A stretch of 62,607 bases of DNA from a virus: IMG/VR virus record IMGVR_UViG_3300017917_002458, positions 1-62,607 of that record. One strand, written 5' to 3'. A program made the translations under genes and the position numbers. The notes under the pieces were generated by a model. The model did no database searches. It saw only the letters and a program-made list of their open reading frames with translations, and had not been told where the DNA came from. Below, in pieces: positions 1,244-56,625 of this stretch (the first letter of the stretch is position 1; every line of letters starts with the position of its first letter).

Positions 1244-1368
1244 GAGTAATTGGTGGAATGGTAGACACAGGAGTCCGTTAAATATTATCAGATGTGATAA
1301 TTTGCCGCAGACTTTAGGATGTAAAACTCCCGCCTCACGGCTTCCAGGTTCAAGTCCTGGGTTACTCA
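1244..1368 (+). tRNA. Leu-type tRNA with internal extra segment
   Basis: Acceptor GAGTAAT/GTTACTC, a Leu-like D arm (TGGTGGAATGGTAGACAC), a variable arm and the T arm CCAGG-TTCAAGT-CCTGG are all clear. The span is 125 nt, about 40 nt more than a normal class II tRNA. The surplus lies in the anticodon region: GGAGT can pair with ACTCC across about 51 nt, and that stretch contains its own hairpin ATTATCA/TGATAAT. The anticodon cannot be placed with confidence. Confidence 0.7.
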
Positions 1369-6279: not shown

Positions 6280-6312
6280 TAAATATTTTCTCAAAAAAAT
6301 TACATACCTTTG
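6280..6312 (+). promoter_or_regulatory. Bacteroidota-type promoter (divergent region)
   Basis: TACCTTTG at 6305-6312 with a T-rich element about 20 nt upstream. Serves the 2H/CCA/HAD fusion gene. The minus-strand operon starts from the same intergenic stretch. Confidence 0.55.
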
Positions 6313-6330
6313 CGAAATATTTATTTAAAA

Positions 6331-8436
6331 ATGCAAAAAGTATCATACACTGCGGTTGTGCTTGATTCAATATCAAGGGAAAGACTGAGACAAGAATTTT
6401 ATAGTTGGGGTGGTGCCATACCACAGGGTTGGGAATGGATCGCTCATCATATGACCATAAAGATGGGTGCGTTGGCCGAACCAATGCGTTCTGAGTTAGT
6501 GGGTAAATCGGCTCGTTTGGTTATAACCAAATTGGGAATGAGCGATATGGCCCTGGCTGTTGGGGTTAAGGGTGTTTATTCTGAAAAGAGTGAACCACAC
6601 ATTACCCTGGCCGTAAACAAGGCCGAGGGCGGTAAACCACAGATGTCAAACCTGATAAGGGATTGGAAACCATACGAAACCGATTTTGTTTTGACTGGGG
6701 TTATAACCGAAGTAAAACAGATCGACCCAAAAAAAAAGTTAACTGAGGGTTACGATGTTAAAAAATTACCTTTCTTTGCCGATATAACAAAGTTGGGTGG
6801 TAAAATATACCAAGTTGGTGGTGCCGTAAGAGATTTGTATCTCGGAAAGGAGTCAAAAGACCTGGATATCCTGGTAACTGGTGTACCTGCCGCAGAATTG
6901 AACAAAATACTGTCAAAATACGGCAAGGTTGACATGGTGGGTGCTTCATTTGGCGTAATTAAGTTTACACCACCAGGTGGCGAAGAAATCGACATTGCGA
7001 TACCAAGAACCGAAAAGAAAGTCGGCGCTGGTTACCAGGGTTTTGATGTAAACGCCGATCACACCCTACCAATCGAAAAAGATCTGGAAAGACGGGACTT
7101 TACCATTAACTCAATCGCCAAAGATAGCGAAGGTAGTATTATAGACCCATACGGCGGTGTTAAAGACCTTAACGCTAAAGTTATCAGGGTAACTAACCCA
7201 GAGGCATTTGGTGATGATCCGTTGAGGATGTTGAGGGCTGTTCAGTTTGCTTCAAGGTTCGATTTTACAATTGAACCAAGAACGTTTGAATTGATCGAAA
7301 GAAACGCAGATAAAATATCTGAAATATCAAAAGAAAGGATTTTGATCGAATTTGATAAGATAGTACACAAAGGTAACCCACATGTTGGTGCTGTTTTGTT
7401 GGATAAGAGTGGGTTGTTCAGAGGTATTTTCGGTACAGGGTTCGATGGTGATTTTGAGCCGTTTGATTATGTTACCAGGATGAGTGAGTTCATATTCTGG
7501 TTGATTAAAGGTATCGTTGACCAGCCAGACCATTACTTCAAGAACATAATGAAGGGTGAAGATAAGGTTACGAAAGAAATTGCCGCTTTGTCTTATTTGT
7601 ACGCTAATTTGCCAGGTGATGATGTAATAAAACAAAGATGGGTATATTTTCATCTAAATAAGTTGGCACCTTCAATATTTTTTAGTAAGTTTGTGCAAAG
7701 TCACCTAAATGACGTTATGGATGACTTCATGACCAACAAATATCCAGCTTCAATCTCTAAACTTGCCGTTAACGGTAACGATTTGATGGAAATGGGTTAT
7801 AAGGGCCAGGAAGTTGGTAAAGCCTTGATGAATATCATCGGTGCCATCTACAGTGACGAAATCAGCAACAATAAGGCTGAGATTATTAAATATTTAAAAG
7901 GAGAAAAGACAATGACAGAAGATACACAGAAAGGCACCAAAAAGGTCGTTTTTTACGACTTTGATGCCACGATAATGGATTCACCTCACCCAGACCCAGG
8001 AAAGCAAATTTGGGCCGAAAAAATGGGTAAACCATACCCTCATAAAGGATGGTGGGGTAGAAATGAGAGTTTGGACTTGAATGTGTTCGATATTCAGCCA
8101 AACCAGGAGATTTATGCTCAATACAAAAAAGATGCGGCTGATCCCGATACAAAGGTTGTTTTGTTGACAAACAGGATACCTCAGAACTCAGAGGCCATTA
8201 AAAAGGTGCTGGCTAAGCACAATATCACATTCGATGCCTATTCCTATAAGAAAGATCATAAGGAGAAAGGTGAAAGAATATGGGATATTCTACACAACCA
8301 GTTCCCAGATTATAAGATGTTTGAGTTTTATGATGATGATCTGAAACATCTGTATAACGCAAAACAAATGTTCGAGGATGAACCCGATTACAAATTCAAG
8401 TTGTATCACGTGGTTCACGGTAAAGTACAAAAATAA
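6331..8436 (+). CDS. 2H phosphoesterase / CCA-adding enzyme / HAD phosphatase fusion
   Basis: A 701-aa three-domain RNA-end-healing protein. Residues about 1-130: 2H phosphoesterase with HMT (40-42) and HIT (90-92), a fold that opens 2',3'-cyclic phosphates. Residues about 155-510: class II tRNA nucleotidyltransferase/poly(A) polymerase with VGGAVRD (162-168), the metal pair DLD (177-179), RRDFTINS and DPLRMLRA, the head and neck of CCA-adding enzymes. Residues about 537-701: HAD phosphatase starting FYDFDATI (D543, D545), resembling Swiss-army-knife RNA-repair HADs. An internal ATG at 7912 preceded by AAAGGAG could also yield the HAD domain alone. It fits the many phage tRNAs without encoded CCA. 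Confidence 0.85.
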   Translation: MQKVSYTAVVLDSISRERLRQEFYSWGGAIPQGWEWIAHHMTIKMGALAEPMRSELVGKSARLVITKLGMSDMALAVGVKGVYSEKSEPHITLAVNKAEGGKPQMSNLIRDWKPYETDFVLTGVITEVKQIDPKKKLTEGYDVKKLPFFADITKLGGKIYQVGGAVRDLYLGKESKDLDILVTGVPAAELNKILSKYGKVDMVGASFGVIKFTPPGGEEIDIAIPRTEKKVGAGYQGFDVNADHTLPIEKDLERRDFTINSIAKDSEGSIIDPYGGVKDLNAKVIRVTNPEAFGDDPLRMLRAVQFASRFDFTIEPRTFELIERNADKISEISKERILIEFDKIVHKGNPHVGAVLLDKSGLFRGIFGTGFDGDFEPFDYVTRMSEFIFWLIKGIVDQPDHYFKNIMKGEDKVTKEIAALSYLYANLPGDDVIKQRWVYFHLNKLAPSIFFSKFVQSHLNDVMDDFMTNKYPASISKLAVNGNDLMEMGYKGQEVGKALMNIIGAIYSDEISNNKAEIIKYLKGEKTMTEDTQKGTKKVVFYDFDATIMDSPHPDPGKQIWAEKMGKPYPHKGWWGRNESLDLNVFDIQPNQEIYAQYKKDAADPDTKVVLLTNRIPQNSEAIKKVLAKHNITFDAYSYKKDHKEKGERIWDILHNQFPDYKMFEFYDDDLKHLYNAKQMFEDEPDYKFKLYHVVHGKVQK

Positions 8437-9194: not shown

Positions 9195-10115
9195 ATGACT
9201 CAAAATCTTGGATATTGCTGTATATCAATGGGAATCAATGAAGGTGTTGCCAAAAAAGACCAGATTACGGTTAATCGTGGTATGGTTAAAAAAACATTCA
9301 CCGACAAAGGTTTATCCTATGTATCAGAATTGGTACAGCAGAATCTTACGGATTGTCTGCGTGTTTTGAAGTATAACTTCTCTAAGGGTATTATGGTTTA
9401 CCGTATGTCCAGCGATATGTTTCCGTGGATGACACATTATAAGATATCCGACTTACCAAACCACTTCAAAATCAAGACACAATGCAAACTGATCGGACAG
9501 TTTGTCATGGAGAACAACATACGTGTTGGATTTCACCCTGGTCAGTTTTGTGTGATTGCATCTGAAAACCCTGATACGGTAAATATGTCAATTACCGAAT
9601 TGGATAGACACGCTGAGATCTTGGATATGATGGAACTACCGCAAACACCGTTTTACGGGATCAATATCCATCTGAGCAACACCAAGCCGACATTGGAAGA
9701 TGCCGCTGCTCGTTTTTGTACTGAATTTCAGCGTCTTAGCGAAAGTGCTAAGAAACGTCTGACTATTGAGAACGATGACAAAGAAGCGCAGTATACCGTG
9801 AAGCATTTGTATGATCTGGTACATAAAAACATCAACATACCAATCATACCAGATTCTTTACACTATCAGTGTCACCCTGGCGATATGTCCTGGGAAGAAA
9901 CATTCAAATTAGCCATATCAACGTGGGGTGATATTAAACCATTGTGCCACCACTCGACATCGGCTAAGTTGTACGAAGATGAGAAGGAAACAAAGCGTAC
10001 CCATACCGAGTACCTTCATGAGCGATTTGAGAACTTTGATGTTCCAGTTGATATTGAACTGGAATGTAAGATGAAAGACTTGGCATTATTAAAATATAAA
10101 AAAGACTATCTATGA
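9195..10115 (+). CDS. uvsE: UV damage endonuclease UvsE
   Basis: Nicks DNA 5' of UV photoproducts to start repair. The 306-aa product matches the family: N-terminal LGYCCISMG, the TIM-barrel metal ligands in FHPGQFCV, INIHLSN, LTIENDD and IPDSLHYQCHPG, and the C-terminal VDIELECKMKDLALL. The ATG at 9195 lies 15 nt after the promoter. Its stop overlaps the next start by 4 nt. Confidence 0.92.
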   Translation: MTQNLGYCCISMGINEGVAKKDQITVNRGMVKKTFTDKGLSYVSELVQQNLTDCLRVLKYNFSKGIMVYRMSSDMFPWMTHYKISDLPNHFKIKTQCKLIGQFVMENNIRVGFHPGQFCVIASENPDTVNMSITELDRHAEILDMMELPQTPFYGINIHLSNTKPTLEDAAARFCTEFQRLSESAKKRLTIENDDKEAQYTVKHLYDLVHKNINIPIIPDSLHYQCHPGDMSWEETFKLAISTWGDIKPLCHHSTSAKLYEDEKETKRTHTEYLHERFENFDVPVDIELECKMKDLALLKYKKDYL

Positions 10116-11221
10116 CAATACAAGATTTGAGAGATAAGGGCTTGATGCTCTTTGAAGTAATATCGGGATCACGTGCGTATGGTACAAACAAACCAACATC
10201 CGATATCGATTACAGGGGCGTATACATATTACCCCAGGAGAACCTTTATGGGTTCAATTATATCGAACAGGTTTCCGATGCAACCAATGATTCGGTTTAC
10301 TACGAAATCGGTAGGTTTTTACAGCTGTTACAGGCCCAGAACCCGAACATCATCGAATTGTTCAACATGCCAGAGGAAAACATCATCTATAAACATCCTA
10401 TGTTTGATGAAATACTCAAACACAGAGGTTCATTCCTGAGTAAAGTATGTCGTGATTCATTCGGCGGGTATGCTGTGGCGCAAATACAGAAAGCCAGGGG
10501 ATTGAATAAGAAGATAGTAAACCCAATGCCGAAGGAACGCAAATCCATATTGGATTTCTGTCATGTGATTGATGGTTATGATACCGTATCTTTGAGAGAA
10601 GTAATAGAAAAAAATCTCGTTCATTCGATTGCTCAACAGGGCGAACAAATGAAACAAGAAAACTGTGGTTTGGTAAACGTACCCCATGCCAGGGATGTCT
10701 ACGCTTTATTTTACGACATAGGCGGCTCATTGGGTTATCGAGGTATTGTTAACGCCGATGATACCTCAAATGAGGTTCGTCTTTCGTCAATACCTAAAGG
10801 TCAGTCACCGATAGCTACCATGATTTACAACAAAGACGGTTATACCAAATACTGCAAGGATTACAAGGAGTATTGGGAGTGGGAAGAAAAGAAAAACCAG
10901 GACAGGTTCAACACCAACATGGAACATGGTAAGGGTTACGACTCTAAGAACATGATGCACTGTATCAGACTGGTTCGTATGGCCACTGAGATAGCCGAAC
11001 AAAAGAAGGTTATTGTTAGGCGGCCCGATGCTCCAGAATTGATGAAGATAAGGAACGGTGAAATGGAGTATGATGCACTCTTACAGGAAGCGGATGAAAA
11101 GATAAAACTATTGGATGAGTTGTACGCTAAGTCAGATCTACCAGCCACAATAGATAAGAATTTTGTTAACACGTTGTTGATAGATTTCAGAATGAAATTT
11201 TATGGGGAGAGAAAATCCTAA
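10112..11221 (+). CDS. RlaP-type DNA polymerase beta-like nucleotidyltransferase
   Basis: A 369-aa protein with the polymerase-beta nucleotidyltransferase signature ISGSRAYGTNKPTSDIDYRG (GS...D-D metal site, residues 19-34). This matches the predicted nucleotidyltransferase family (RlaP) often found beside RNA ligases and RNA-repair genes. It presumably transfers a nucleotide to an RNA or protein end; the substrate is not known. Translationally coupled to uvsE (ATGA overlap). Confidence 0.8.
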   Translation: MTIQDLRDKGLMLFEVISGSRAYGTNKPTSDIDYRGVYILPQENLYGFNYIEQVSDATNDSVYYEIGRFLQLLQAQNPNIIELFNMPEENIIYKHPMFDEILKHRGSFLSKVCRDSFGGYAVAQIQKARGLNKKIVNPMPKERKSILDFCHVIDGYDTVSLREVIEKNLVHSIAQQGEQMKQENCGLVNVPHARDVYALFYDIGGSLGYRGIVNADDTSNEVRLSSIPKGQSPIATMIYNKDGYTKYCKDYKEYWEWEEKKNQDRFNTNMEHGKGYDSKNMMHCIRLVRMATEIAEQKKVIVRRPDAPELMKIRNGEMEYDALLQEADEKIKLLDELYAKSDLPATIDKNFVNTLLIDFRMKFYGERKS

Positions 11222-13037: not shown

Positions 13038-13460
13038 ATGAGTAAATACCATCTGTTCCTTGATGATGAGAGGAACCCCAAAGACTGCTGCAATTACATG
13101 CCCAATAAAAGATACTATTGGGAAACAGAGTTTATTGTGGTTAGAAACTATGAGGATTTTGTTAGTACAATAAAAGAACAGTTTAAAAATGGTAATCTCC
13201 CAGAATGTGTGTCTTTCGATCATGATCTGGCTGATGAACACTATTCAATAGGTGTCTCAAGTAAAGAAGACTGGGAAGATTACCATTTTTATTCGGATCG
13301 TGAAAAAACTGGCTATGACTGTGCTAAATATTTAACAGAGTTTTGTGCCGAGAATAATTTACCTTTGCCAGAATACTACGTTCACTCGATGAACACCATC
13401 GGAAGAAAGAACATTGTATCGTGGTTAGAAAACTTTAAAAAGCATCATGCTATACACTAA
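13038..13460 (+). CDS. Cyclic-phosphate processing receiver-domain (cREC) protein
   Basis: 140 aa with the receiver-like pattern LFLDDERNP (residues 6-14), VRNYEDF, SFDHDL (about 57-62) and YYVHSMN (about 113-119). This acidic-pocket layout matches the cREC family predicted to process cyclic phosphates in RNA-repair loci. It directly follows the kinase-like gene. Confidence 0.7.
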   Translation: MSKYHLFLDDERNPKDCCNYMPNKRYYWETEFIVVRNYEDFVSTIKEQFKNGNLPECVSFDHDLADEHYSIGVSSKEDWEDYHFYSDREKTGYDCAKYLTEFCAENNLPLPEYYVHSMNTIGRKNIVSWLENFKKHHAIH

Positions 13461-16229: not shown

Positions 16230-17588
16230 ATGAATAAGAATCATTGCGGTATTGTAACCGTATTAAGAAATGTAAGGCCACACCCAAACGCCGACAAAGT
16301 AAAGTTGGCAACATGTCATGGAAATCAGGTGGTCGTTGGGTTGGATAACAAAGACGGTGACCTTGGTGTTTATTTCCCTTGTGATTTAGCGTTGAGTCAT
16401 GAGTTCGCTTATGCCAACAACCTTTACAGAGAAAAAACAATGAACTCTGACCCAAATGATAAACCTGGTATGTTTGAGCCTAACCGCAGGGTTAGAGCGC
16501 AGAAGTTCAGAGGTGAAATATCTGATGGATTCTGGGTGCCTATGTCATACTTCAACTTCATCAAGGGTTTGCCTGTTGATTTATTAGATGAAGGTTATGA
16601 ATTTGATACAATAGGGAAAACACCTATTTGTAACAAATACATCAACCCATCGACCATAAAAGCCGCTCAGCAGAATCAACCAAAAAAGACAAAGACTGCG
16701 AAGACATCAATCATGTTCAAAGAACATATCGATACCTCTCACTTTGGGCGTTGTATGCATGAAGTGAGACCGAATGATTTAATCATCATCACGGAAAAGT
16801 TTCATGGGACATCTCATAGAGTGGGTCATGTGTTGACTGAACGTCCACTTAAGTGGTGGGAAAAGATTCTCGTTAAACTGGGTGTGGCTATCAACAAAAA
16901 CGAATGGACTTACCTTAACGGTACACGTAGGGTTGTTCTTGAAGAATCAAAGCGTGACGGGCCACAGTATCACGACCCAACAATCAGGGAAAAAGCATTC
17001 AACTTGTTTAAGGGAAACCTTAGAAAAGGTGAAACTGTTTACCTCGAAATTGTGGGTTACGATAACGGCACAACACCAATTATGCCAGCGGTGGACACAA
17101 CTGCGTTGAAAGACAAAGAGTTTACCAAGACATATGCAAATATGGAAAATAAAACACATATGGTATATTCATATGGGTGTGCGGAAGGGACATCGGATGT
17201 TTATGTTTATCGTATGACTATGACAAATGTCGATGGCCAGTCGGTTGACTATTCATGGGATGACGTTATGAGACGTTGTAATGAATTGGGTGTGAAATAC
17301 ATGCCAGAGCTTGCTCGTTTCACTGTCGGTGAATTAAAAGCCAACGAAGAATTAAAGGGACATTTTTTTAATGATGATCGTGACTTCCAGGATTTTCTGT
17401 TGAATGAAGTAGATATTTATTCTAAAGGAGCCTCACTTGTTGATATAACCCACATAAGAGAAGGTGTTTGTGTTAGGTTAGAATCTGGTCTCGCACCAAG
17501 AATCTACAAGCATAAGTCATTCGAATTCAAAGTGTTAGAAGGGTTAGCTAAAGACTCAGGTGTGGTTGACATGGAAGAATCTAACTAA
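16230..17588 (+). CDS. RNA ligase, DRB0094/Rnl5-like
   Basis: 452-aa ATP-dependent RNA ligase. Residues 1-160 form an N-terminal OB-like module (NVRPHPNADKVKLA). The nucleotidyltransferase motifs follow in order: motif I TEKFHGTS with lysine 190, motif III YLEIVGY (271-277), motif IV EGVCVRLE, and motif V YKHKSFEFKVLE. The N-terminal module before motif I is typical of the Deinococcus DRB0094 family, which seals nicks with 3'-OH RNA. It would act with the kinase, 2H and HAD end-healing enzymes nearby. Confidence 0.88.
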   Translation: MNKNHCGIVTVLRNVRPHPNADKVKLATCHGNQVVVGLDNKDGDLGVYFPCDLALSHEFAYANNLYREKTMNSDPNDKPGMFEPNRRVRAQKFRGEISDGFWVPMSYFNFIKGLPVDLLDEGYEFDTIGKTPICNKYINPSTIKAAQQNQPKKTKTAKTSIMFKEHIDTSHFGRCMHEVRPNDLIIITEKFHGTSHRVGHVLTERPLKWWEKILVKLGVAINKNEWTYLNGTRRVVLEESKRDGPQYHDPTIREKAFNLFKGNLRKGETVYLEIVGYDNGTTPIMPAVDTTALKDKEFTKTYANMENKTHMVYSYGCAEGTSDVYVYRMTMTNVDGQSVDYSWDDVMRRCNELGVKYMPELARFTVGELKANEELKGHFFNDDRDFQDFLLNEVDIYSKGASLVDITHIREGVCVRLESGLAPRIYKHKSFEFKVLEGLAKDSGVVDMEESN

Positions 17589-19201: not shown

Positions 19202-19648
19202 ATGGACATTAATAAATTCATTGCGGATAAATGCCAACATGTATCTGGCAATTTATGTGAAACCGATCAATTAACTTTCGCTATGGTTCATGCGTTGGAT
19301 AAAAACCATAGGCACATACCCGAGTGGTATAAAACACTCAGGGTTGGAAAGTTACTTGATTATTTCATAAATGAGCGTATTATTACCAAGTCACAGATTA
19401 GGTATAGATTTACTCTGGGGTATGGTTTCGATCCGATTCCTTTTAATGATGAGTTTAAACTGGAGCAATACCAATTAACAAATTTTACAATATTTGATTT
19501 ATCGTTGGAAGAATTGACAATTATATCAAATATATTACCCTCAGAAGACATTAAAGCCGAAATTGACTTCAAAGTATCCGAACCATACTATTTGGACGGA
19601 GATAAAGATAAGCTACTGCAAAAATATAAGTTGTATTGTAAATTATGA
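19202..19648 (+). CDS. Hypothetical protein (148 aa)
   Basis: Begins MDINKFIADKCQHVSGNLCE. No domain recognised. Overlaps the 2H phosphoesterase gene by 4 nt and shares its promoter. Confidence 0.65.
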   Translation: MDINKFIADKCQHVSGNLCETDQLTFAMVHALDKNHRHIPEWYKTLRVGKLLDYFINERIITKSQIRYRFTLGYGFDPIPFNDEFKLEQYQLTNFTIFDLSLEELTIISNILPSEDIKAEIDFKVSEPYYLDGDKDKLLQKYKLYCKL

Positions 19649-20190
19649 ATTTTTTTAAAAAGATCGCTAAAATTGTTGAACCCAAAACAGATAATAGGTA
19701 TGAGTATGGTTGTGCCATGTTATATTTCGATTTCCCAGAGATGAAAACCCTCCATGGATTAATCCAACCACATGAATTATACGCACCAGAAACAGGAGGA
19801 TATGGCCTGGAAGATGAACCACATATAACCCTGTTATTTGGGTTACATTCAGATGAAATAAATGATGATCATGTCCTGGACGCTTGTAAGGTTAGACCGT
19901 ATAGTAACATAACGCTTAAGAATGTTTCATTATTTAAGAACCCCGAGTTTGATGTTTTGAAGTTTGATGTTGATGGTGAAGATCTTCACTATGTAAACAA
20001 CATTCTAACCAAGTTTCCACACACCAACCGATTCCCAGAGTATCACCCACACGCAACGATTGGATATTTGAAGCCAGGTGCGGGTGATGAGGTTATAAAA
20101 AGGATTAAAATGGGTAAACCATATGTGGTTACACCTAAATCCATAGTCTATTCCAAACCAGATAAAACAAAGAAAATTATAAATCTATGA
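19645..20190 (+). CDS. 2H phosphoesterase (LigT-like)
   Basis: 181 aa with both HxT motifs: EPHITLLFG (about 78-86) and HPHATIGYL (about 133-141), the twin histidine signature of 2H enzymes that hydrolyse 2',3'-cyclic or 2'-5' phosphates. It is a second, stand-alone copy of the activity fused at 6331. Coupled by 4-nt overlaps to both neighbours. Confidence 0.8.
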   Translation: MNFFKKIAKIVEPKTDNRYEYGCAMLYFDFPEMKTLHGLIQPHELYAPETGGYGLEDEPHITLLFGLHSDEINDDHVLDACKVRPYSNITLKNVSLFKNPEFDVLKFDVDGEDLHYVNNILTKFPHTNRFPEYHPHATIGYLKPGAGDEVIKRIKMGKPYVVTPKSIVYSKPDKTKKIINL

Positions 20191-20629: not shown

Positions 20630-20845
20630 ATGGAAAAAGTAATTGCCGCACTGATGGTATTGGTGCTACTCGTTGTAATCTCAATCATTGTCGCTTTTCC
20701 GATTATGTGGTTGTGGAATCTCTGCCTGGTACCAGCTATACCTATGTTGGTTAAAATAACGTTCTGGCAAGCGTTGGGTATCAAAGTTCTTATCGGACTG
20801 TTGTCATACTCAAACTCGTCATCTTCCACATCAAAGAAAAACTAA
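20630..20845 (+). CDS. Small membrane protein (71 aa)
   Basis: Two hydrophobic segments and a Ser-rich C-terminus (SYSNSSSSTSKKN). ATG at 20630 was chosen because the promoter's start point lies about 30 nt upstream. Shares its last base with the next start. Function unknown. Confidence 0.65.
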   Translation: MEKVIAALMVLVLLVVISIIVAFPIMWLWNLCLVPAIPMLVKITFWQALGIKVLIGLLSYSNSSSSTSKKN

Positions 20846-21375
20846 TGAAAGAAAAAATAATATTTGTCGATGTTGACGGCCCATTAGCCTATAATACGTG
20901 GGATTTGGGCCGATTCAAAATTGATGATATAAACATGCCGTACCCGTGGGTTCAGCAAGAATGTGATGCTTTGGCTGAAATAATTCGCAGAACCAATGCT
21001 AAGGTGGTGATCAGCTCAGATTGGAAGTATCACTACAGCATCGTACAGTTGGGTAAGATATTCGTTCATTACGGTATACCTAACAAAATCATCGGTATGA
21101 CCGATGGTAACAAAGCTAAAATGAGTTCATACATTGAAATGGATAGAGCTTATCAGATAATGCGTTGGGTTGAGGGTAATAAAGATCTGATTGACACCTG
21201 GGTGGCTATTGACGATTTAAGGCTCGATAAATACTTTGAGGATGCCAAAGAAACGAGAAATATACCCGTATCTAAAGACAACTTTGTATGGTTGGATGGT
21301 GATTGGTCTGGAACCACCGCTAAATTATCAGAAAATGTTGACCTTATTGTAAAACTACTCAATAGAGAGGCATAA
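20845..21375 (+). CDS. HAD phosphatase, RNA-repair (SAK) type
   Basis: 176 aa. Motif I FVDVDGPL (DxD at 8-10), motif II in KVVISSDWK (about 55-63) and an acidic motif AIDDLRLD (about 131-138). The VISSxW pattern is typical of the HAD group found in Swiss-army-knife RNA-repair proteins. It probably removes 3' or 2' phosphates, but the substrate is inferred. Confidence 0.72.
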   Translation: MKEKIIFVDVDGPLAYNTWDLGRFKIDDINMPYPWVQQECDALAEIIRRTNAKVVISSDWKYHYSIVQLGKIFVHYGIPNKIIGMTDGNKAKMSSYIEMDRAYQIMRWVEGNKDLIDTWVAIDDLRLDKYFEDAKETRNIPVSKDNFVWLDGDWSGTTAKLSENVDLIVKLLNREA

Positions 21376-23571: not shown

Positions 23572-24423
23572 ATGCGCACAGCACCAAACATGAATGATGA
23601 GTATGACGTTAAGACACTAAACAAACTTAACGCCAAACCATGGCAAATAGCATTACTGGAAAAAAATCCAAGTTACCCATTTTGGGGTAATGGCGAGGAT
23701 TACATGTGGAAAAAAGAAGGTGAGGGTTGGGATTCCCCAGTGAAGTTGAAAACTTTTGCCGATCATTTCAAGTTGGATGAATACAACGAGTTGGTAAACT
23801 TTTATTTCCATGTATATCGTGAAAACCACGAGTGTCCGCACTGTAAGGGTGAGGGTTTAAATCCCGCCACATTAAAGATATCAAATGATTGGTATGCTTT
23901 TAGTCATGAAGCGAACCCAGCCGATAAATGGTGTGATAAGATCACCCAGGACGAGGTTGATGAATTGGTTAAGCGGGGTCGTCTCTCCGATTTCATGCCA
24001 GACCGCAAATGGTATCGTTTTGATGGGGAACGTAATCAGTGGATGGTTATGGATGATACTGGCGAATGGAAAGACCGCAAATGGGTTGATTGTGAAAAAC
24101 CAGAGATGCCAACAGCGGAAACCATCAACCAGGCGCAGCGTGGTAAAGGTATGTACCATCACGATGCCATCAACAGGTGGATATGTATTGAAACCAGGGC
24201 AAAGCGCCTGGGCGTATACGGTCATTGCGAACATTGTGTTGACGGGTACATCTACGATGAACCAGAAGCAAGGGTTGGTCTCCAACTTTGGATTCTTCAC
24301 CCAAGAAAAGGAGCATCACGTGGTGTTTATATCGAAAACATCGAGGAACATGAAGTTCCAGCGGTTATCGAATATCTGAAAGAAGCCGCTGAGCGAAATG
24401 CGAACAGGTTCTCAAAACTTTAA
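23572..24423 (+). CDS. Zinc-ribbon phage protein (283 aa)
   Basis: Contains two separate CxxC pairs, CPHCKGEGLNP (about 88-98) and CEHCVDGYIY (about 221-230), like a split DnaJ-type zinc finger, flanking a long DxxW-rich middle with KWYRFDG and RWICIET. Possibly a zinc-stabilised scaffold or nucleic-acid binder; no enzyme motif seen. Confidence 0.65.
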   Translation: MRTAPNMNDEYDVKTLNKLNAKPWQIALLEKNPSYPFWGNGEDYMWKKEGEGWDSPVKLKTFADHFKLDEYNELVNFYFHVYRENHECPHCKGEGLNPATLKISNDWYAFSHEANPADKWCDKITQDEVDELVKRGRLSDFMPDRKWYRFDGERNQWMVMDDTGEWKDRKWVDCEKPEMPTAETINQAQRGKGMYHHDAINRWICIETRAKRLGVYGHCEHCVDGYIYDEPEARVGLQLWILHPRKGASRGVYIENIEEHEVPAVIEYLKEAAERNANRFSKL

Positions 24424-24424
24424 T

Positions 24425-25027
24425 ATGAAAAAAAAGATTATATTTCTCGATGTCGATGGTGTTCTCAACTGTAACGATTGGTACGTTGAGCGCCATCGGC
24501 TCGTTCAAGCTGGTGTGGAAACCAGGAATTACCCATACGATGAGTTTTCGCCAAGTATCGTTGCGAAACTGAATAAAATCACCGATGCAACTGGTGCTGA
24601 GATAGTGGTGAGTTCCACATGGCGTTTAGGGCGTGATTTAGCTGAATTACGAGATCTTTTCACTCGGGTTGGTATAACGGGCCATGTGTTGGATAAAACG
24701 CCGCATTTCGGCGGTATTGATGGTTATACTATACCGAGGGGTTGCGAAATCGAACAGTGGTTAGACCAACATAAGTTCCAGCGCATTAACTGGTCAATGA
24801 AAGCGCAAAAGGAATACGCTGAGAAGTCTGAGATAGACAACTACGTTATTTTTGATGATGATTCCGACATGTTATATAACCAGAGGGAACATTTCATTAA
24901 AACAAGCCAGAAAACGGGTCTGGATGACACCGATGTGGAAAGGGCAATCGAATTGCTCAAAAAACCCATATGGGAAGTTTACTATAAAGTCGATGGGCCT
25001 TTTTATGATGAGAATTTATACAAATAG
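24425..25027 (+). CDS. HAD phosphatase, RNA-repair (SAK) type
   Basis: 200 aa. Motif I FLDVDGVLNCNDW (D8, D10), motif II IVVSSTWR (about 66-73) and acidic motif YVIFDDDSD (about 142-150). The VVSSTWR pattern again points to the Swiss-army-knife RNA-repair HAD group. It starts 1 nt after the previous stop. Confidence 0.72.
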   Translation: MKKKIIFLDVDGVLNCNDWYVERHRLVQAGVETRNYPYDEFSPSIVAKLNKITDATGAEIVVSSTWRLGRDLAELRDLFTRVGITGHVLDKTPHFGGIDGYTIPRGCEIEQWLDQHKFQRINWSMKAQKEYAEKSEIDNYVIFDDDSDMLYNQREHFIKTSQKTGLDDTDVERAIELLKKPIWEVYYKVDGPFYDENLYK

Positions 25028-28322: not shown

Positions 28323-29366
28323 ATGAAACAGTATAAGTTACTCACACGTGATCAGTTCAGAAATGCGGTCTTCCAAAGAGACGGGCATAAGTGTATTATG
28401 TGTGATGTAACCGAAAATCTGGATGCTCATCACATAATTGAGAGACGATTATTTGATTCGGAAGAAATGTTTGGCGGCTACTTTGTTGAAAACGGGGCAA
28501 CGCTCTGTTCAAAACATCACATAATAGCCGAAGAAACCACATTAACTTGTGAAGAAATACGTTTAAAACTAAAACTCGATGAGTTTCCAATACCAGAACA
28601 CTTTTATGACGATGTTAACTATGATAAATGGGGTAACATCCTTTTACCAAACGGTACCCGATATAAAGGTGATCTTTTCTATGATGAGTCTGTACAAAAA
28701 ATCCTTAAACAAGGAGGTGTATTCGACTTATTCAGCAAATACATCAAATATCCAAGAACCTACCACTTGATGTGGAGCAATCTGCTCAAAGATGATAGAA
28801 TGCTAAAAAACCACGATCATTTCCAGGGTAAGCGAGTTATTGTTACGTTGAAAATGGATGGTGAGAATACCACCTGGTATAACGATTACATCCACGCTCG
28901 TTCACTTAATTCTGGCGCACATGAATCCAGAGATTGGGTTAAAGGTTTATGGGCCCAAAAAGCCTATATGCTCGATGAGAACATGAGGATATGTGGTGAA
29001 AACCTTTATGCTGTTCATTCGGTTAAATATACCGATTTGAAATCATACTTTATGATGTTTTCAATGTGGGTGGATAACACATGCTTGTCATGGGATGAAA
29101 CGGTTGAATACGCTGGAATCCTGGGATTGGAAACCGTACCCGTTATCTATGACGGTGTGTTTGACGAAAAGGCCATTAAAGAGGTGTTTAAGCCTTATGA
29201 GGCGACCAATGAGGGTTATGTGGTAAGGCTGGCCGATGAGTTCACTTACGGCAATTTTAGGCGGTCTATTGCGAAATACGTAAGACCAGAGTTCCGACAG
29301 ATGCTCAATAACTCACATGGTCACTGGATATCCAAGAAAATAGAAAAAAACGGATTAATAAAATAA
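28323..29366 (+). CDS. HNH nuclease - RNA ligase fusion
   Basis: 347 aa combining cutting and sealing domains. Residues 10-70 form an HNH finger: CIMC (24-27), DAHHIIE (35-40) and LCSKHH (61-66). Residues about 140-345 form a nucleotidyltransferase RNA ligase: motif I TLKMDGEN with Lys177, motif III CGENLYA then YFMMFSMW, motif IV EGYVVRL, motif V AKYVRPEF. No intervening stop and a single promoter, so the fusion is real. It might break and rejoin RNA or DNA, or the HNH could be a binding finger; the substrate is unknown. Confidence 0.8.
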   Translation: MKQYKLLTRDQFRNAVFQRDGHKCIMCDVTENLDAHHIIERRLFDSEEMFGGYFVENGATLCSKHHIIAEETTLTCEEIRLKLKLDEFPIPEHFYDDVNYDKWGNILLPNGTRYKGDLFYDESVQKILKQGGVFDLFSKYIKYPRTYHLMWSNLLKDDRMLKNHDHFQGKRVIVTLKMDGENTTWYNDYIHARSLNSGAHESRDWVKGLWAQKAYMLDENMRICGENLYAVHSVKYTDLKSYFMMFSMWVDNTCLSWDETVEYAGILGLETVPVIYDGVFDEKAIKEVFKPYEATNEGYVVRLADEFTYGNFRRSIAKYVRPEFRQMLNNSHGHWISKKIEKNGLIK

Positions 29367-29685: not shown

Positions 29686-29885
29686 TGAGAGGGCAATGGC
29701 ATAAAACCGTAGACGGTAGGGATATCTATATCGTTGACTACGAAAACCGATTAATGCCTCAGTATGACGAGGAAACGGCGAAAAAAATAACAGAAACAGC
29801 GCAAGAAACCAGTAAATGGTTGCGCCAGTTTTTGAAAGAGAATAATATTAAATTTACATTAGGCAATGAAGACATTAATTGTTAA
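29685..29885 (+). CDS. Hypothetical protein (66 aa)
   Basis: Starts on the last base of the previous stop (TAATG) and overlaps the kinase gene by 20 nt. Begins MRGQWHKTVDGRDIYIVDYE. No domain recognised. Confidence 0.6.
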   Translation: MRGQWHKTVDGRDIYIVDYENRLMPQYDEETAKKITETAQETSKWLRQFLKENNIKFTLGNEDINC

Positions 29886-30411
29886 CTTTTGTGGTGGCCC
29901 TGGCGTGGGTAAAAGTAAAATGGGGTTACGTTTAACCTCAGATCTAAAAGACCGTGGGTATACGGTTGATTACACTGGCGAATACGCTAAAGACATGGTG
30001 TGGCAGAAATCACATCACATTCTCTCGAACCAGCATTACATCTTTGCGAAGCAACAGAACAGAATATGGCGTTTATATGACCAGGTTAACATTGTTGTAA
30101 CCGACTCACCGCTCATCAATAGCGTGGTGTATTGTAAAGACGATACCAGCGATCTTTTCAAGGCATATGTGCATGAACAATTCGCCAGCCGTAATAACAT
30201 GAACATCAACCTATTACGTGGTAAGTATTACGATCCGAAAGGGCGCAATCAAACATTGGATGAGGCGATTTCATTGGATAATGAGATTACTCAGGTAATG
30301 GAAGAAAAATACGGATTCCATTTAACCGTACCTGGTGAATTGGAGAACGCAGATACTATCCTGGAGGCGGTTATTGAAGAGTATCGCAAACTTAATAAAG
30401 GTACGCTATGA
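29866..30411 (+). CDS. P-loop kinase, AAA_28 / NadR-kinase-like
   Basis: 181 aa. Walker A FCGGPGVGKSKMG (8-20), then YTGEYAKDMVW (37-47), an NQHYIFAKQQNRI helix and Walker B-like NIVVTDSPLI (76-85). This is the arrangement of the AAA_28 family that includes the nicotinamide-riboside-kinase domain of NadR. NAD-precursor phosphorylation is an attractive guess given the NAD genes downstream, but other small-molecule kinases are possible. Confidence 0.65.
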   Translation: MKTLIVNFCGGPGVGKSKMGLRLTSDLKDRGYTVDYTGEYAKDMVWQKSHHILSNQHYIFAKQQNRIWRLYDQVNIVVTDSPLINSVVYCKDDTSDLFKAYVHEQFASRNNMNINLLRGKYYDPKGRNQTLDEAISLDNEITQVMEEKYGFHLTVPGELENADTILEAVIEEYRKLNKGTL

Positions 30412-51764: not shown

Positions 51765-51872
51765 GGCTATTTGGCGAAAGCAGACGCAACGAATTAAAGC
51801 GTTGGTGATAATGGGAACCCAGCTGTTCTGGATGTGAACCTCACCGTGTGGGATCGTACCCCACAATAGCCA
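51765..51872 (+). tRNA. tRNA-Leu (TAA) with enlarged variable region
   Basis: Acceptor GGCTATT/AATAGCC, Leu-type D arm, anticodon stem CAACG/CGTTG with 8-nt loop AATTAAAG (TAA after U), T arm GTGGG-ATCGTAC-CCCAC. Length 108 nt because the region between anticodon and T arm is about 41 nt and contains extra hairpins. Discriminator A, no encoded CCA. Confidence 0.75.
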
Positions 51873-51939: not shown

Positions 51940-52012
51940 AGTGTAGTAGTTCAGACACGGAATGAATCCCGTCGGGTGGCGGTGGTTGTTGGTTCGAATC
52001 CAGCCTATACTG
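51940..52012 (+). tRNA. tRNA, possibly His (GTG)
   Basis: Acceptor AGTGTAG/CTATACT, D arm GTTC-AGACACGGAAT-GAAT, T arm GTTGG-TTCGAAT-CCAGC. The best anticodon stem is CCGTC/GGTGG with loop GGGTGGC (GTG), but U33 is absent and only 2 nt separate it from the T stem, so the identity is tentative. An alternative reading puts GAA (Phe) in an 8-nt loop. Confidence 0.6.
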
Positions 52013-52026
52013 CAAACAAGTCAATT

Positions 52027-53660: not shown

Positions 53661-53961
53661 AAAACGCTTTGAGATAATCCATATGCCCAACGGGTATATT
53701 AAATCCGATGGGGATCATTACAATTATAACTTGTATAAGTTGGTTGACCATAATAATGGGGAATGGTACAATAAATGGGCTCAATTAGGCCGTAAACAAG
53801 GTACAAGGCAATTCACTAATGATATATTTGATACCGATAAAGAATGCATTGATTACCTGTTGGGTCAGATAATTGATAGGTTGCGCCAAGAAGGTCACCG
53901 CCAGAGAAAAGATAATAAAATCTGGGAAAAACGAAAAAAAGTTTGGTGGAATGGAAAATAA
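53632..53961 (+). CDS. Hypothetical protein (109 aa)
   Basis: Overlaps the previous gene by 29 nt. Basic at both ends (MKVKLLKKVRKRFEII, EKRKKVWWNGK). Its end overlaps the next promoter. Function unknown. Confidence 0.6.
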   Translation: MKVKLLKKVRKRFEIIHMPNGYIKSDGDHYNYNLYKLVDHNNGEWYNKWAQLGRKQGTRQFTNDIFDTDKECIDYLLGQIIDRLRQEGHRQRKDNKIWEKRKKVWWNGK

Positions 53962-53973
53962 TACTTACTTTTG
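53942..53973 (+). promoter_or_regulatory. Bacteroidota-type promoter for the second tRNA array
   Basis: TTTG at 53942 and TACTTTTG at 53966-53973, 20-nt spacer. The first tRNA begins 14 nt downstream. Confidence 0.75.
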
Positions 53974-53986
53974 TAAAAGAAAAAAT

Positions 53987-54098
53987 AACCGAATAGTTTA
54001 ACAGGAAAAAACCACGGTGCGTAGTGGTTAGAATAGAACACGATGGACTGCCGAGTTTGCAGTGAAGGGTGAGGGTTCGGGCCCCTCTTCGGTTACCA
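53987..54098 (+). tRNA. Oversized tRNA with D-loop insertion, isotype unresolved
   Basis: Acceptor AACCGAA/TTCGGTT, discriminator A, encoded CCA. T arm GAGGG-TTCGGGC-CCCTC. Anticodon stem ACTGC/GCAGT with loop CGAGTTT. Length 112 nt: about 25 extra nt sit in the D loop and form a hairpin AACCAC/GTGGTT. Confidence 0.72.
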
Positions 54099-54223
54099 AA
54101 ACTATTAAATTGGGCGGCGGAGATTTATCCGTAGTGGTGGGATCGCAACCCCTAACTGTCTTGTATCAGATACCACTGGTAGCACCCAGAGGCGAAGAGT
54201 CGAACTCAATTTAATAGTTTTTT
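54099..54223 (+). ncRNA. Structured RNA closed by a 14-bp helix with T tail
   Basis: AAACTATTAAATTG (54099-54112) pairs perfectly with CAATTTAATAGTTT (54207-54220), followed by TTT. Inside are AGTGGT/ACCACT and GGG-ATCGCAA-CCC. It starts on the CCA of the preceding tRNA. It may be a small RNA or a terminator with a branched top. Confidence 0.5.
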
Positions 54224-54229
54224 GTAAAA

Positions 54230-54331
54230 GGTTCGGTGATGGAAAGGTAGACATAGGTGTGTAAGTTGCCCGATGCGTTAATAACAACTATAAAATAATC
54301 GCATATCAAAGTTCGAGTCTTTGCTGAACCA
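54230..54331 (+). tRNA. Leu-type tRNA (TAA) with enlarged variable arm
   Basis: Acceptor GGTTCGG/CTGAACC, Leu-like D arm (GATGGAAAGGTAGACAT), anticodon loop TGTAAGT (TAA but without U33), T arm CAAAG-TTCGAGT-CTTTG. The variable arm ATGCG/CGCAT holds a 22-nt AT-rich loop. 102 nt, no encoded CCA. Confidence 0.68.
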
Positions 54332-54593
54332 CAAGTCAACAGATGTACATGGAGTGTTGGTATCTTACACTCTCTTTGGCGAACCATCGAATCCACGAAT
54401 GCGTTGGATAGATCTAATAAGCAGGTATAAAATGTCATGGCTGGACTTTAACGAAAACATTCTCTGCGGAGGACTGGTTGCTATAATAGCAAATGCTATC
54501 AAGGTACTATAGTAATCTTTAACATCATGCGGTAGACACCCCGTAGTTTTTACGGTAACGACGTTTTATAAGGGGTATTTTAAATTTTTAACT
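54332..54593 (+). other. 262-nt spacer, no clear gene
   Basis: Contains small hairpins (ATAGC/GCTAT near 54487; ACCCC..GGGGT with CCGTA/TACGG near 54537-54576) and an AT-rich end before the next ATG. No T arm, no convincing protein frame except a 26-codon ATG frame at 54432. Confidence 0.4.
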
Positions 54594-54740
54594 ATGCCGT
54601 TAGATATTGATTATATTGCTGGGGTAAAAGCAATAGACGAATTAAAAGAATTGCTTTCTCAGCAACCGCATGGTGAACGAGATGAAATCGCAGATGAGAT
54701 CTGCGCCTTTGTCGAAGAAATGAAACAAAGATTTGGTTAA
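54594..54740 (+). CDS. Small helical protein (48 aa)
   Basis: MPLDIDYIAGVKAIDELKEL then acidic helix with Cys (ADEICAFVEEMKQRFG). It lies inside the tRNA array, and its stop overlaps the 5' end of the next tRNA-like gene by 6 nt. Function unknown. Confidence 0.6.
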   Translation: MPLDIDYIAGVKAIDELKELLSQQPHGERDEIADEICAFVEEMKQRFG

Positions 54741-54916
54741 TTGGTGGAGAGGAAGACACACGGGCGAGTGATGAAGAAAGGGCACGAGTCTGGGATTGAC
54801 GAGCTTAACCCGATGACGGTTGCAAACGTTGCGGTACAACAGAATGGTGAATACTATGAAAATAGGATAGGCCCCGAATGATTCAATCAGCGCAACTTCG
54901 ATTGTTGCATTAACCA
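54735..54916 (+). tRNA. Leu-type tRNA with about 95 extra nt
   Basis: Acceptor GGTTAAT/ATTAACC, Leu-like D arm (TGGTGGAGAGGAAGACAC), T arm GCAAC-TTCGATT-GTTGC, discriminator A. Total 182 nt. The extra material lies between D arm and T arm and includes CGGG/CCCG and GCAA/TTGC pairings. Anticodon not placed. Confidence 0.62.
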
Positions 54917-55029
54917 CAAGTCCGATCCCAAGGACGAACAAATAAAAGGACGCTTGTTAGGATGCGAGAGACTTCTACGTTATTCTCACTAATGTTACGA
55001 GGGAGATGCTGGTAGGTAAGCTACTTTAT
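54917..55029 (+). other. 113-nt spacer
   Basis: No gene. Contains GTCC/GGAC pairs and, at its end, a GTAG-GTAAG-CTAC hairpin 5 nt before the next tRNA, comparable to the leader hairpins elsewhere. Confidence 0.35.
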
Positions 55030-55149
55030 GATCAAGTAGCTCAACGGCAGAGCGGCAGACAGATAATCTGCGTCACCGAAAGGGTATCAAAGAGGCGGAG
55101 ATGGCTACCGTGGGTATGATATTTGTTGGTTCGAATCCTTCCTTGGTCA
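55030..55149 (+). tRNA. tRNA-Ile (GAT) with insertion before the T arm
   Basis: Acceptor GATCAAG/CTTGGTC, perfect D arm GCTC-AACGGCA-GAGC, anticodon stem GCAGA/TCTGC with loop CAGATAA (GAT; A instead of U33), T loop TTCGAAT. The T stem is imperfect. About 45 extra nt lie between anticodon and T arm. 120 nt, no encoded CCA. Confidence 0.7.
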
Positions 55150-55402
55150 CACGTGCCAGTGCATACGCTGGATAGTATGTCCCATATGATGAGAAACAGG
55201 GTGATGCCTGTAGGAGATTGCTGATATACCAGGTATATCCAGATTGACCATCTGCTGGATAAAGAAAGATATAAAGTCATCGGTGCTTTCAATGGTCTAT
55301 TTCTAACACGATGCTGGTGAAAGCAACCAAAATACGTAACAGTTGAGGGTCGTGGACAACCATAACACTTGTAAGCTGGATAAATCAGGGTGTTAATTTT
55401 AT
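55150..55402 (+). other. 253-nt spacer with hairpins
   Basis: No gene. Hairpins include CCAG/CTGG near 55156, GATATAC/GTATATC near 55223 and AACAC..GGTGTT just before the next tRNA. No T arm or protein frame. Confidence 0.35.
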
Positions 55403-55684
55403 GGTCAAGTGGCGGAATGGTAGACGCACTAACGAAAAAAGAAACTGAGTTAGGTACTGAATAAGAAGAACGCAGACTTCGAATAACAAAGGCAATTGGA
55501 ACTGGACGTGCCTTGAATTGACAAGGAAGTGGCTTTGCGGGTGCTGGAGTACCAGTGATACCGATGTGTAGGATGATTGCAATCCGAAGCATTTTGGGTG
55601 TGAGTCTGAGTTATGGGAACTCGCCCAGATAAGCAGTAACTACGTAGTCCAAGTACAGTACTGGTTCGAACCCAGTCTTGACCA
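55403..55684 (+). tRNA. Leu-type tRNA with about 195 extra nt
   Basis: Acceptor GGTCAAG/CTTGACC, textbook Leu D arm (TGGCGGAATGGTAGACGC), T arm ACTGG-TTCGAAC-CCAGT, discriminator A. Total 282 nt, the longest of the set. The interior has CTAAC/GTTAG, CCTTG-AATTGA-CAAGG and CTGG/CCAG hairpins but no recognised group I intron core. Anticodon not placed. Confidence 0.6.
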
Positions 55685-55749
55685 CAGCAAGTCAAAAAAT
55701 AGTCTATGTCGGGAAAAGACTGCTTCAAAAACGATGGGCATAGATGACG

Positions 55750-55765
55750 GGTGGGAAAGGCCACC
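55750..55765 (+). other. tRNA leader hairpin (GAAAGG loop)
   Basis: Stem GGTGG/CCACC with hexaloop GAAAGG, 4 nt before the next tRNA. Same geometry as the GAAAGA-loop hairpins. Confidence 0.55.
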
Positions 55766-55769
55766 AAAT

Positions 55770-55895
55770 GGTCAAGCAGCGATTGAATCGCACCGATTTT
55801 GTGGGGTAAGGTAGCTGGATGTGTCCTACGATTCTCAAACCCTGACGAGGGTGATGACGGAACTTAGCTAAGAGGTTTGAATCCTCTCTTGACCG
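55770..55895 (+). tRNA. Oversized tRNA, isotype unresolved
   Basis: Acceptor GGTCAAG/CTTGACC (identical to the tRNA at 55403), D-arm-like GCGA-TTGAA-TCGC, T arm AGAGG-TTTGAAT-CCTCT, discriminator G. 126 nt. An internal ACCCT-GACG-AGGGT hairpin is part of the surplus. Confidence 0.6.
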
Positions 55896-55899
55896 CAAA

Positions 55900-56023
55900 T
55901 TTAACTATACAGAGGAAGCATCCATAGCTCTTTAGATGCACTCGCAATTAGGGGTCAGTTCGAATCTGGCGACACAAATTAGGGCTTGTGAATAAGGTGG
56001 ATTAGAGTAATTGCATAGTTAAA
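55900..56023 (+). ncRNA. tRNA-like RNA closed by a 9-bp helix
   Basis: TTTAACTAT (55900-55908) pairs with ATAGTTAAA (56015-56023). Inside are GCATC/GATGC and a canonical T arm GTCAG-TTCGAAT-CTGGC. The T arm is about 45 nt from the 3' end of the closing helix, unlike a normal tRNA, so this is a tRNA-like RNA with an insertion after the T arm or a degenerate tRNA. Confidence 0.45.
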
Positions 56024-56138
56024 ACAGATTTTGATTATTAAAGAGAAGCGGGAGTACGAGCCCTGACTGTGGCCACAGAAAACAGGATAGGAAACCGACT
56101 ACTGGGATAATAGAATAGGCCCAGATTAATCAGTGACA
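56024..56138 (+). other. 115-nt spacer
   Basis: No gene. Contains the perfect palindrome CTGTGGCCACAG near 56066 and a CTGGG/CCCAG stem near 56101. Confidence 0.35.
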
Positions 56139-56154
56139 ACCTGGAAAGACGGGT
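56139..56154 (+). other. tRNA leader hairpin (GAAAGA loop)
   Basis: Stem ACCTG/CGGGT (one T-G) with hexaloop GAAAGA, 5 nt before the next tRNA. Confidence 0.6.
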
Positions 56155-56159
56155 AAATT

Positions 56160-56348
56160 GGTCAGGTGGCGGAATGTAGACGCTAAAGTGAAGCTCTTAT
56201 AGATTGGTTGTCAGTAACTAAGTTACATGACCTGTAGACGTAAAATAACAATTACCGTTGAACAAATCAGGTTTGAGTTGTGTTATAATGTTCACGCTTC
56301 AAAAACATCTAAACTCCAATCATACAGGTTCAAATCCTGGACTGACCA
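56160..56348 (+). tRNA. Leu-type tRNA with about 100 extra nt
   Basis: Acceptor GGTCAG/CTGACC, Leu D arm (TGGCGGAATGTAGACGC), T arm CAGG-TTCAAAT-CCTG extended by T-A, discriminator A. 189 nt. The extra segment lies between D and T arms. GTGAA near 56188 can pair with TTCAC near 56291. Anticodon not placed. Confidence 0.6.
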
Positions 56349-56488
56349 CGAATGCCCCTACGAGTTTGCTAACGTAGTGAATGGTGGATAAGCGGCTGGC
56401 TATTGCAAAACATGGCGAATAAAAGGCACCATCGGTAGGAAAGATTTCGCTAAACCTACTTAAAATCTTTGTAAGGTAAAGATTGGCA
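56349..56488 (+). other. 140-nt spacer
   Basis: No gene. Contains CTACG/CGTAG, GTAGG/CCTAC and AAAGATT/AATCTTT pairings. A sequence GAATGGTGGATAAGC resembles a Leu D arm, but no matching T arm was found. Confidence 0.35.
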
Positions 56489-56504
56489 CTCTGGAAAGAC
56501 GGAG
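56489..56504 (+). other. tRNA leader hairpin (GAAAGA loop)
   Basis: Stem CTCTG/CGGAG (one T-G) with hexaloop GAAAGA, 6 nt before the next tRNA. Confidence 0.6.
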
Positions 56505-56510
56505 ACTCAT

Positions 56511-56595
56511 TCGGCTCTGGTGTAATGGAAGCACACCCTCTTTATTTAGCGCTAAGGGGAAGGTATAGTTTGTTCGAATCCTATGTGCCGAGCCA
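56511..56595 (+). tRNA. tRNA with expanded loops, isotype unresolved
   Basis: Acceptor TCGGCTC/GTGCCGA (6 of 7 pairs), D stem GTGT/GCAC with GG loop, discriminator G and encoded CCA. Anticodon stem CCCT/GGGG encloses 16 nt instead of about 7. T arm ATAG(TTT)G-TTCGAAT-CCTAT carries a three-base bulge. TTGGCAC at 56483 could pair 7/7 with the same 3' strand, but it overlaps the leader hairpin. Confidence 0.65.
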
Positions 56596-56625
56596 AACAG
56601 TTGAAAATAAAGAAACAAAAATAAA

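Follow-up and report, generated by a model that had tools for sequence, protein, structure and literature searches.

Transfer RNA genes with extra segments are known from the Lak megaphages, whose tRNA introns were reported in 2019 as 'enigmatic' (Devoto 2019, PMC6784885); that paper proposed no motif, partner protein or mechanism. Ro60 and YrlA, a Y RNA, are likewise known in phages (PMC7765460), and in Salmonella Rsr, Y RNAs and the RtcB ligase share one operon (PMC7790460). Here we describe the IMG/VR record IMGVR_UViG_3300017917_002458 (62,607 bp; hereafter the window), which, judging from features that include TTTG..TAnnTTTG promoters, comes from a large Bacteroidota-type phage, of which it is a fragment. 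Its expanded tRNAs are of two kinds – an array of tRNA-like units at 53987-56592, and a single gene (1244) belonging to a class with a short insert – and we separate the two because a model of the short insert matches 1274-1317 and matches nothing above chance in the array. The array units are genuine, selection acts on stems and insert alike in the largest of them, and two close relatives encode a Ro60-like protein; the short insert, a hairpin followed by ACNGCAA, is genetically tied to that same Ro60 homologue, a DUF2828 protein.

Lak offers a first parallel: both are huge Bacteroidota phages whose tRNA genes carry extra segments unclassified by Rfam, and Lak-A1, like the insert-bearing records described below, has DUF2828. 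No sequence relation between the two sets of inserts was found, however, and the two Lak-A1 inserts examined, in genes of 101 and 104 nt, are without the ACNGCAA module. YrlA (Rfam RF02553) with Ro60 or Rsr offers a second parallel, namely a tRNA-like body joined to a module (Ro60-binding in YrlA) and a Ro60-fold protein encoded nearby, binding in the present case being suggested by genetic association. Whereas in YrlA the tRNA is permuted and its acceptor end closed, genes of the short class are unpermuted and have a normal acceptor end, with the module inside the anticodon stem; moreover, the Ro60 homologue here is DUF2828 and not TROVE.

Evidence for the array came from a purpose-made scan requiring an acceptor stem with at least six of seven pairs, T8, R9, a D arm, a T arm and ends no more than ~420 nt apart. 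The scan returned six units, and at the same threshold none in 30 Markov shuffles, none on either strand of 34 window control stretches of the same size, and none on the minus strand of the array itself. Two further units were read by hand (53987-54095 and 55770-55895), giving eight in all, of 82-282 nt, with acceptor, D and T arms paired. A first-pass annotation, made from the letters alone, had proposed such an array on the strength of nine T arms and matching acceptor stems; the stems stand, and so do eight of the T arms, while the ninth (55959) is part of a different structured RNA (~55900-56023). Its placement of the surplus sequence was correct for most units. Unit 54230 is a Leu-type tRNA whose variable arm bears a 22-nt loop. 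At 56511 the surplus it saw in the T stem is a 3-nt bulge, to which an enlarged anticodon loop must be added, and at 55030 the extra nucleotides, placed by it in the variable region, extend to the T stem and leave the anticodon arm intact (GCAGA CAGAUAA UCUGC, Ile GAU). With the exception of that one arm, array units share the acceptor, D and T arms of canonical tRNAs and lack both the anticodon arm and the length of 70-95 nt.

Standard tools pass over the array almost entirely. ARAGORN reports nine tRNAs in the window, all within 1-3469, and none in the array; the Rfam tRNA model matches one array unit (55030-55149, 40.3 bits) and misses most of the others. The inserts match no Rfam family, and the array contains no match to YrlA at E<=5 or to tmRNA (RF00023). 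Like the array units, tmRNA has acceptor, D-like and T arms and a long insert in place of the anticodon part, yet the D arms of the array are canonical, and the relatives G002 and G003 possess separate tmRNAs (G002 L028:1108-1486(-), 78.8 bits; G003 L029:12756-13205, 39.4 bits, the latter under the Rfam cut-off). Because one promoter-like site lies just before the array and the next only after it (none other before 56601), the array is likely a single transcript; the same promoter block is found upstream of tRNA clusters in the relatives G001 and G003.

The case for selection rests on G001 (320,934 bp), the closest relative, with a CCA-enzyme protein 77% identical to that of the window. The two copies of the 282-nt unit are 95% identical, differing at 14 of 282 positions, and six of the 14 changes combine into three base pairs, each fully compensated: the acceptor has two of these (GGTCAAG/CTTGACC in the window, GGTTGAG/CTCAACC in G001) and the T stem one (ACTGG/CCAGT against ACAGG/CCTGT). 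When 14 changes were placed at random in 200,000 simulations, the fraction of trials with two or more compensated pairs was 6.5e-5, and no trial gave three (P <5e-6). Only four of the differences fall in the 216 positions of the insert, as opposed to 10 in the remaining 66. From these comparisons – the compensated pairs on the one hand, the distribution of differences on the other – tRNA ends and insert are both constrained. The pairing of acceptor and T arms is thus kept in a relative, and the suggestion that such units are functional gains support here and from the Lak-A1/B1 tRNA-Gly, which carries a 40-50-nt insert in the variable region and whose acceptor and T stems are re-paired between copies. 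The RNA at 55900-56023 is also kept in G001, its closing stem re-paired (UAACUAUACA/UGCAUAGUUA versus UAAUCAUACA/UGUAUGAUUA) with 2 compensatory pairs. The remaining array units are absent from G001, and a comparison of the whole array with 49 relative records gave substantial matches in G001 alone, two others having matches of 26-29 nt.

The gene at 1244-1368, noted in the first pass as a milder case, proves to be a member of a widespread class, in which ~44 nt are inserted between tRNA nucleotides 28-30 as a covarying 7-bp hairpin, three nucleotides and then ACNGCAA. Its insert, within the anticodon part, has the hairpin AUUAUCA-GAUG-UGAUAAU followed by UUG and CCGCA, and is the best hit of the covariance model in window positions 1-4000 (1274-1317, 11.9 bits, E 0.099), with all 7 bp and at the expected place. 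(The other milder case, at 51765, is a further expanded unit, below the Rfam cut-off.) Similar inserts occur in tRNAs of 121-125 nt in G001-G003, three of which become perfect tRNAs when exactly 50 nt are taken out. A search of viral contigs and GTDB genomes with a pattern of D-arm piece, CNGCA and T-arm piece led, from the fetched loci, to a set of at least 206 genes, all distinct, 104-133 nt long and of bacterial or phage origin; this and the following counts for the class are among the matches listed, and they place it in more than 200 tRNA genes of phages and Clostridia. The pattern itself makes CNGCA invariant; an A precedes it in 84% of the 206 genes and follows it in 85%. An upstream stem of at least 5 bp – usually 7 bp, with a 4-nt loop and a 3-nt gap – is present in 92% of genes versus 30% when shuffled. 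Among 163 genes chosen by motif alone, pairing at fixed geometry reached 77%, as opposed to 53% when partners were shuffled and no more than 53% when they were slid, and the pairs include all Watson-Crick types (a separate count of pair types, from genes picked for pairing, is illustrative only).

In 108 of the 206 genes (2.75 expected), taking out one block brings back a perfect 5-bp anticodon stem together with U33 and R37; the cut falls mostly after nucleotide 28 or 29. Where they are not required, U33 appears in 85-90% and R37 in 93-98%, and the anticodons are diverse. In this the class recalls the protein-spliced introns of archaea and eukaryotes, also short inserts in the anticodon arm whose removal restores the tRNA; those introns, however, lie at 37/38, the hairpin-ACNGCAA element has not been described for them, and an EndA-type endonuclease was not seen here. 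No insert-free orthologue among the fetched loci was close enough to fix the boundaries, and three apparent insert-free hits (L283, L295, L327) were rejected as archaeal introns. The 44-position RNA model was itself too weak for a genome-wide search. Annotation serves these genes poorly: the copy in Aeromonas phage Aeh1, a 119-nt gene at 96387-96505, is filed as tRNA-Val(CAC), that in PX29 as tRNA-Leu, and three relatives have none. Aeh1 also holds a second expanded tRNA of a different kind (L371, 114907-115008), with a hairpin insert of ~25 nt in the anticodon loop, and at L211:678-836(-) a whole second tRNA-like gene lies within the anticodon loop of a tRNA gene, resembling the Lak tRNA-Thr case.

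A partner for the short insert emerged from comparison of open reading frames around 135 insert-bearing loci (again among the matches listed): one family is present at 70 of them, at a median of 121 nt from the tRNA. It combines DUF2828 and DUF7788 with a vWA domain, and D-x-S-G-S is invariant. The best Protein Data Bank matches to an AlphaFold2 model (38-row alignment, pLDDT 85.5) are Ro60 proteins, matched along their whole length (best E 1.5e-8), among them Ro60 of Thermus phage phiLo, the Ro autoantigen and Deinococcus Rsr; as modelled, the protein is a Ro60 homologue with a HEAT-like ring and a vWA/MIDAS fold. DUF2828 is found in all 14 insert-bearing records of at least 200 kb among the matches listed, including G001, G002 and three Aeromonas phages, and in none of 12 comparison records as large (Fisher P 1e-7, for records that share ancestry and a comparison set of other CCA-enzyme phages judged insert-free by the weak model, two with marginal hits). 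TROVE was rejected as the common partner, being present in G004 only. G002 also has a full-length YrlA match (E 3.7e-7, under the Rfam cut-off), permuted as in Rfam. For the short class the evidence is strong on two counts, the anticodon arms restored and the link to Ro60, and the same sequence evidence would fit an intron removed with the help of Ro60 or a Y-RNA-like RNA kept whole. Within the open-access literature, to which our search was confined, neither the hairpin-ACNGCAA class nor its site nor its link with DUF2828 turned up in any report; these are new in that sense, phage tRNA introns and phage YrlA being already known. Near Ro60-like/tRNA loci we also observed a 417-aa protein without assigned family (11 loci; L248:546-1796(-)) and a WYL protein (10 loci; L251:2063-3004(-)), and in G001 the DUF2828 Ro60-like gene (L380:2300-4818(-)) is interrupted by an insertion of ~870 nt.

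The question that remains is the nature of the array. We tentatively favour a reading in which it is one transcription unit of tRNA/Y-RNA-type RNAs with a protein-recruiting module, operating in a phage system for tRNA guarding or repair. Selection would keep the acceptor, D and T arms, with an extra RNA module set within, or replacing, the anticodon, variable or T-stem part; the tRNA body would be processed by phage or host tRNA machinery, and the module would recruit a protein, most likely the phage Ro60-like (DUF2828) protein, the RNAs and the protein together guarding or repairing tRNAs during infection. We infer that Ro60 would bind the modules, and that the inserts of the array are comparable in kind to those of the short class. 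That the inserts would be kept and not cut out is suggested by the excision searches: for no array unit did a single excision yield a tRNA better than the shuffled-middle control. Since shuffled middles score as highly as real ones in the ARAGORN single-excision search, which does not discriminate for individual genes, only pooled excision statistics were used. The idea of removable inserts, also raised in the first pass, is well supported only for the short class, where excision at a fixed site restores the anticodon arm; in the array the lack of a good excision and the conservation of the insert together favour retained tRNA-like RNAs over removal.

Several results weigh against this reading. 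The insert folds are no more stable than shuffles (whole-unit z-scores +0.5 to -1.3), so the early impression that the inserts often form hairpins of their own does not rise above chance. The hairpin-ACNGCAA module is missing from the array units at 53987-56592, where the best model hit, 7.6 bits, is at chance level. Comparison with a full orthologue was possible for just one array unit and the 55900 RNA. Finally, the window fragment contains no Ro60 gene, the phage's own copy being presumed from G001 and G002; the Ro60 gene of G001 appears to lie outside the stretch corresponding to the window, which would explain its absence.

The chief alternative is that the inserts are protein-spliced introns: an endonuclease would excise them, the 2H, HAD and cREC enzymes and a kinase would heal the ends, and one of two ligases would join the halves into ordinary tRNAs, the Ro60-like protein assisting recognition in the short class. 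In favour of this are the diverse anticodons and restored anticodon arms of that class, the introns of Lak phages, inferred by comparing insert-bearing with insert-free genes (PMC6784885), and the full end-healing and sealing set of the window (Table 1), in whose fusion protein the first domain, as represented by the G002 orthologue, matches the cyclic phosphodiesterase (CPD) domain of fungal tRNA ligase. Each of the 14 insert-bearing records that reach 200 kb (among the matches listed) has a PF09414 RNA ligase; RtcB, found in only 3/37 records, was rejected as the common ligase. Sets of this kind are known from jumbo phages, where they count as RNA repair (PMC7824862), and that of the window would be compatible with tRNA repair or with splicing. 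Against splicing, array excisions never exceed the shuffled null, the analysis identified no endonuclease for it, and no orthologue lacking the intron was close enough to set the boundaries; the 282-nt insert, moreover, has changed less than the tRNA ends, to a degree not required of an intron that is thrown away, a ribozyme excepted. As an account of the array we regard splicing as unlikely. A broader version, which we hold to be doubtful, would extend Ro60-dependent tRNA splicing or guarding to phages and Clostridia alike: a Y-RNA-like, Ro60-binding intron at nucleotides 28-30 (larger modules elsewhere) would be excised and the halves sealed by ligase, yielding a tRNA and a Y-RNA-like fragment.

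Two further explanations are improbable. The units could be expanded tRNAs or decoys, retained uncut so as to escape, absorb or sense the anticodon nucleases of the host, a role that Iyer 2021 (PMC7824862) argues for jumbo-phage tRNAs and repair genes. The anticodon arms are indeed the most altered part, in a phage rich in tRNA-repair genes, but inserts are also found in parts (D, variable and T) that nucleases of this type leave alone, and short-class anticodon loops remain canonical. Alternatively, the units may be tRNA genes decaying in a recombination-prone region, most of the array being missing from G001 (which retains just the 5' part of the 56160 unit) and anticodon arms being absent in most units; acceptor and T stems are nevertheless paired in nearly all of them, and the three compensatory changes between the two copies of the largest unit already make decay unlikely for 55403. 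Self-splicing (group I or II) or other ribozyme inserts that escaped detection are very improbable: the 282-nt unit does have a highly conserved ~200-nt insert in a Leu-type tRNA, the classic group I site, and the window has homing-endonuclease-like genes, but no Rfam intron or ribozyme matches 51000-57200 at E<=5 – consistent, as far as Rfam reaches, with the first-pass failure to see a group I core – the other inserts (~20-120 nt) are too small, and in IMG/VR a 21-mer from the core of the 282-nt insert is found in no viral contig save G001. A peptide-like short reading frame in that insert was also rejected, two of its few codon changes relative to G001 being non-synonymous, and two protein queries adjoining the array found no relatives.

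The significance of these findings is that the unexplained extra segments of phage tRNAs gain a candidate partner and a sequence signature, the partner being Ro60, whose role in bacteria is largely open; genes of this kind are missed or misnamed by current annotation. If the segments are introns, they define a new route of tRNA splicing; if not, they are a non-permuted kind of Y RNA. Ro60-dependent splicing, if true, would mean protein-based tRNA splicing outside archaea and eukaryotes, with a role in it for Ro60 and Y RNAs.

Table 1. Positions of tRNA-like units, other RNA features and RNA-repair genes in the window.
Feature	Position	Strand	Remarks
Leu-type tRNA gene with 44-nt insert of the short class	1244..1368	+	insert ~1272-1320
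2H phosphoesterase, CCA-adding enzyme and HAD phosphatase fusion	6310..8436	+	708 aa
RlaP RNA-repair nucleotidyltransferase	10112..11221	+	GS..DID motif
cREC cyclic-phosphate-processing domain	13038..13460	+	
RNA ligase, PHA02142 OB domain	16230..17588	+	KRDG motif
2H phosphoesterase	19645..20190	+	HITL, HATI motifs
HAD_SAK_2 phosphatase	20845..21375	+	
HAD_SAK_2 phosphatase	24398..25027	+	
RNA ligase	28323..29366	+	KMDG motif
P-loop kinase, candidate 5' kinase	29866..30411	+	GGPGVGKS
Further expanded tRNA-like unit	51765..51872	+	Rfam tRNA 24.1 bits, under cut-off
Further non-canonical tRNA-like unit	51940..52012	+	Rfam tRNA 32.7 bits
Promoter-like site, Bacteroidetes-type, TTTG-N-TAnnTTTG	53942..53974	+	pattern scan; just 5' of unit 1; sole one before 56601
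tRNA-like unit 1, 109 nt	53987..54095	+	D-loop hairpin insert AACCAC/GUGGUU; acceptor AACCGAA/TTCGGTT 7/7, T stem 5/5
RNA-like segment	54098..54221	+	between units 1 and 2; perfect 15-bp inverted repeat (100% complementary) around 94 nt
tRNA-like unit 2, 102 nt	54230..54331	+	scan; Leu-type D arm, enlarged variable arm with 22-nt loop
tRNA-like unit 3, 182 nt	54735..54916	+	scan; Leu-type D arm; anticodon/variable part replaced
tRNA-like unit 4, 120 nt	55030..55149	+	scan; ~50-nt insert in variable region/T stem; Rfam tRNA 40.3 bits
tRNA-like unit 5, 282 nt	55403..55684	+	scan; Leu-type D arm; orthologue in G001 288831-289112(-)
tRNA-like unit 6	55770..55895	+	D arm GCGA-UUGAA-UCGC, T loop UUUGAAU; acceptor GGTCAAG/CTTGACC 7/7, T stem 5/5
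Structured RNA	55900..56023	+	closing stem, T arm, closed CACAA/UUGUG hairpin; YrlA-like layout by eye; no Rfam match; kept in G001
tRNA-like unit 7, 189 nt	56160..56348	+	scan; Leu-type D arm; G001 retains just 5' part
tRNA-like unit 8, 82 nt	56511..56592	+	scan; 13-nt anticodon loop; T stem ATAG(TTT)G/CCTAT, 3-nt UUU bulge

Some smaller features of the window and its relatives deserve mention. A phage-encoded sigma-70-like factor lies at 48553-49107. In G004 a 2545-aa frame (L018:7103-14737) joins the 2H, CCA-enzyme and HAD domains known from the 708-aa window fusion to ~1700 aa without assignment. The tRNA gene at 1532-1610 is a non-canonical tRNA-Ala(UGC), with the T loop AUCGUUC and a long D loop; G003 has a canonical tRNA-Ala at that position, and in G001 (L024 rc 12466-13340) an unrelated segment, possibly a minus-strand mobile-element gene, stands in place of the window tRNA genes 1244-1610. 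The sequence CTGGAAA(A)GAC occurs five times in the window (0.12 expected), once, at 7084, within a coding region. Hairpins of the CUGGAAAGAC type, possibly a processing signal, lie a few nucleotides upstream of tRNA genes at 216, 1143, 56141 and 56491, and also at 51883; they are present in G001 and absent from the G002-G004 loci.

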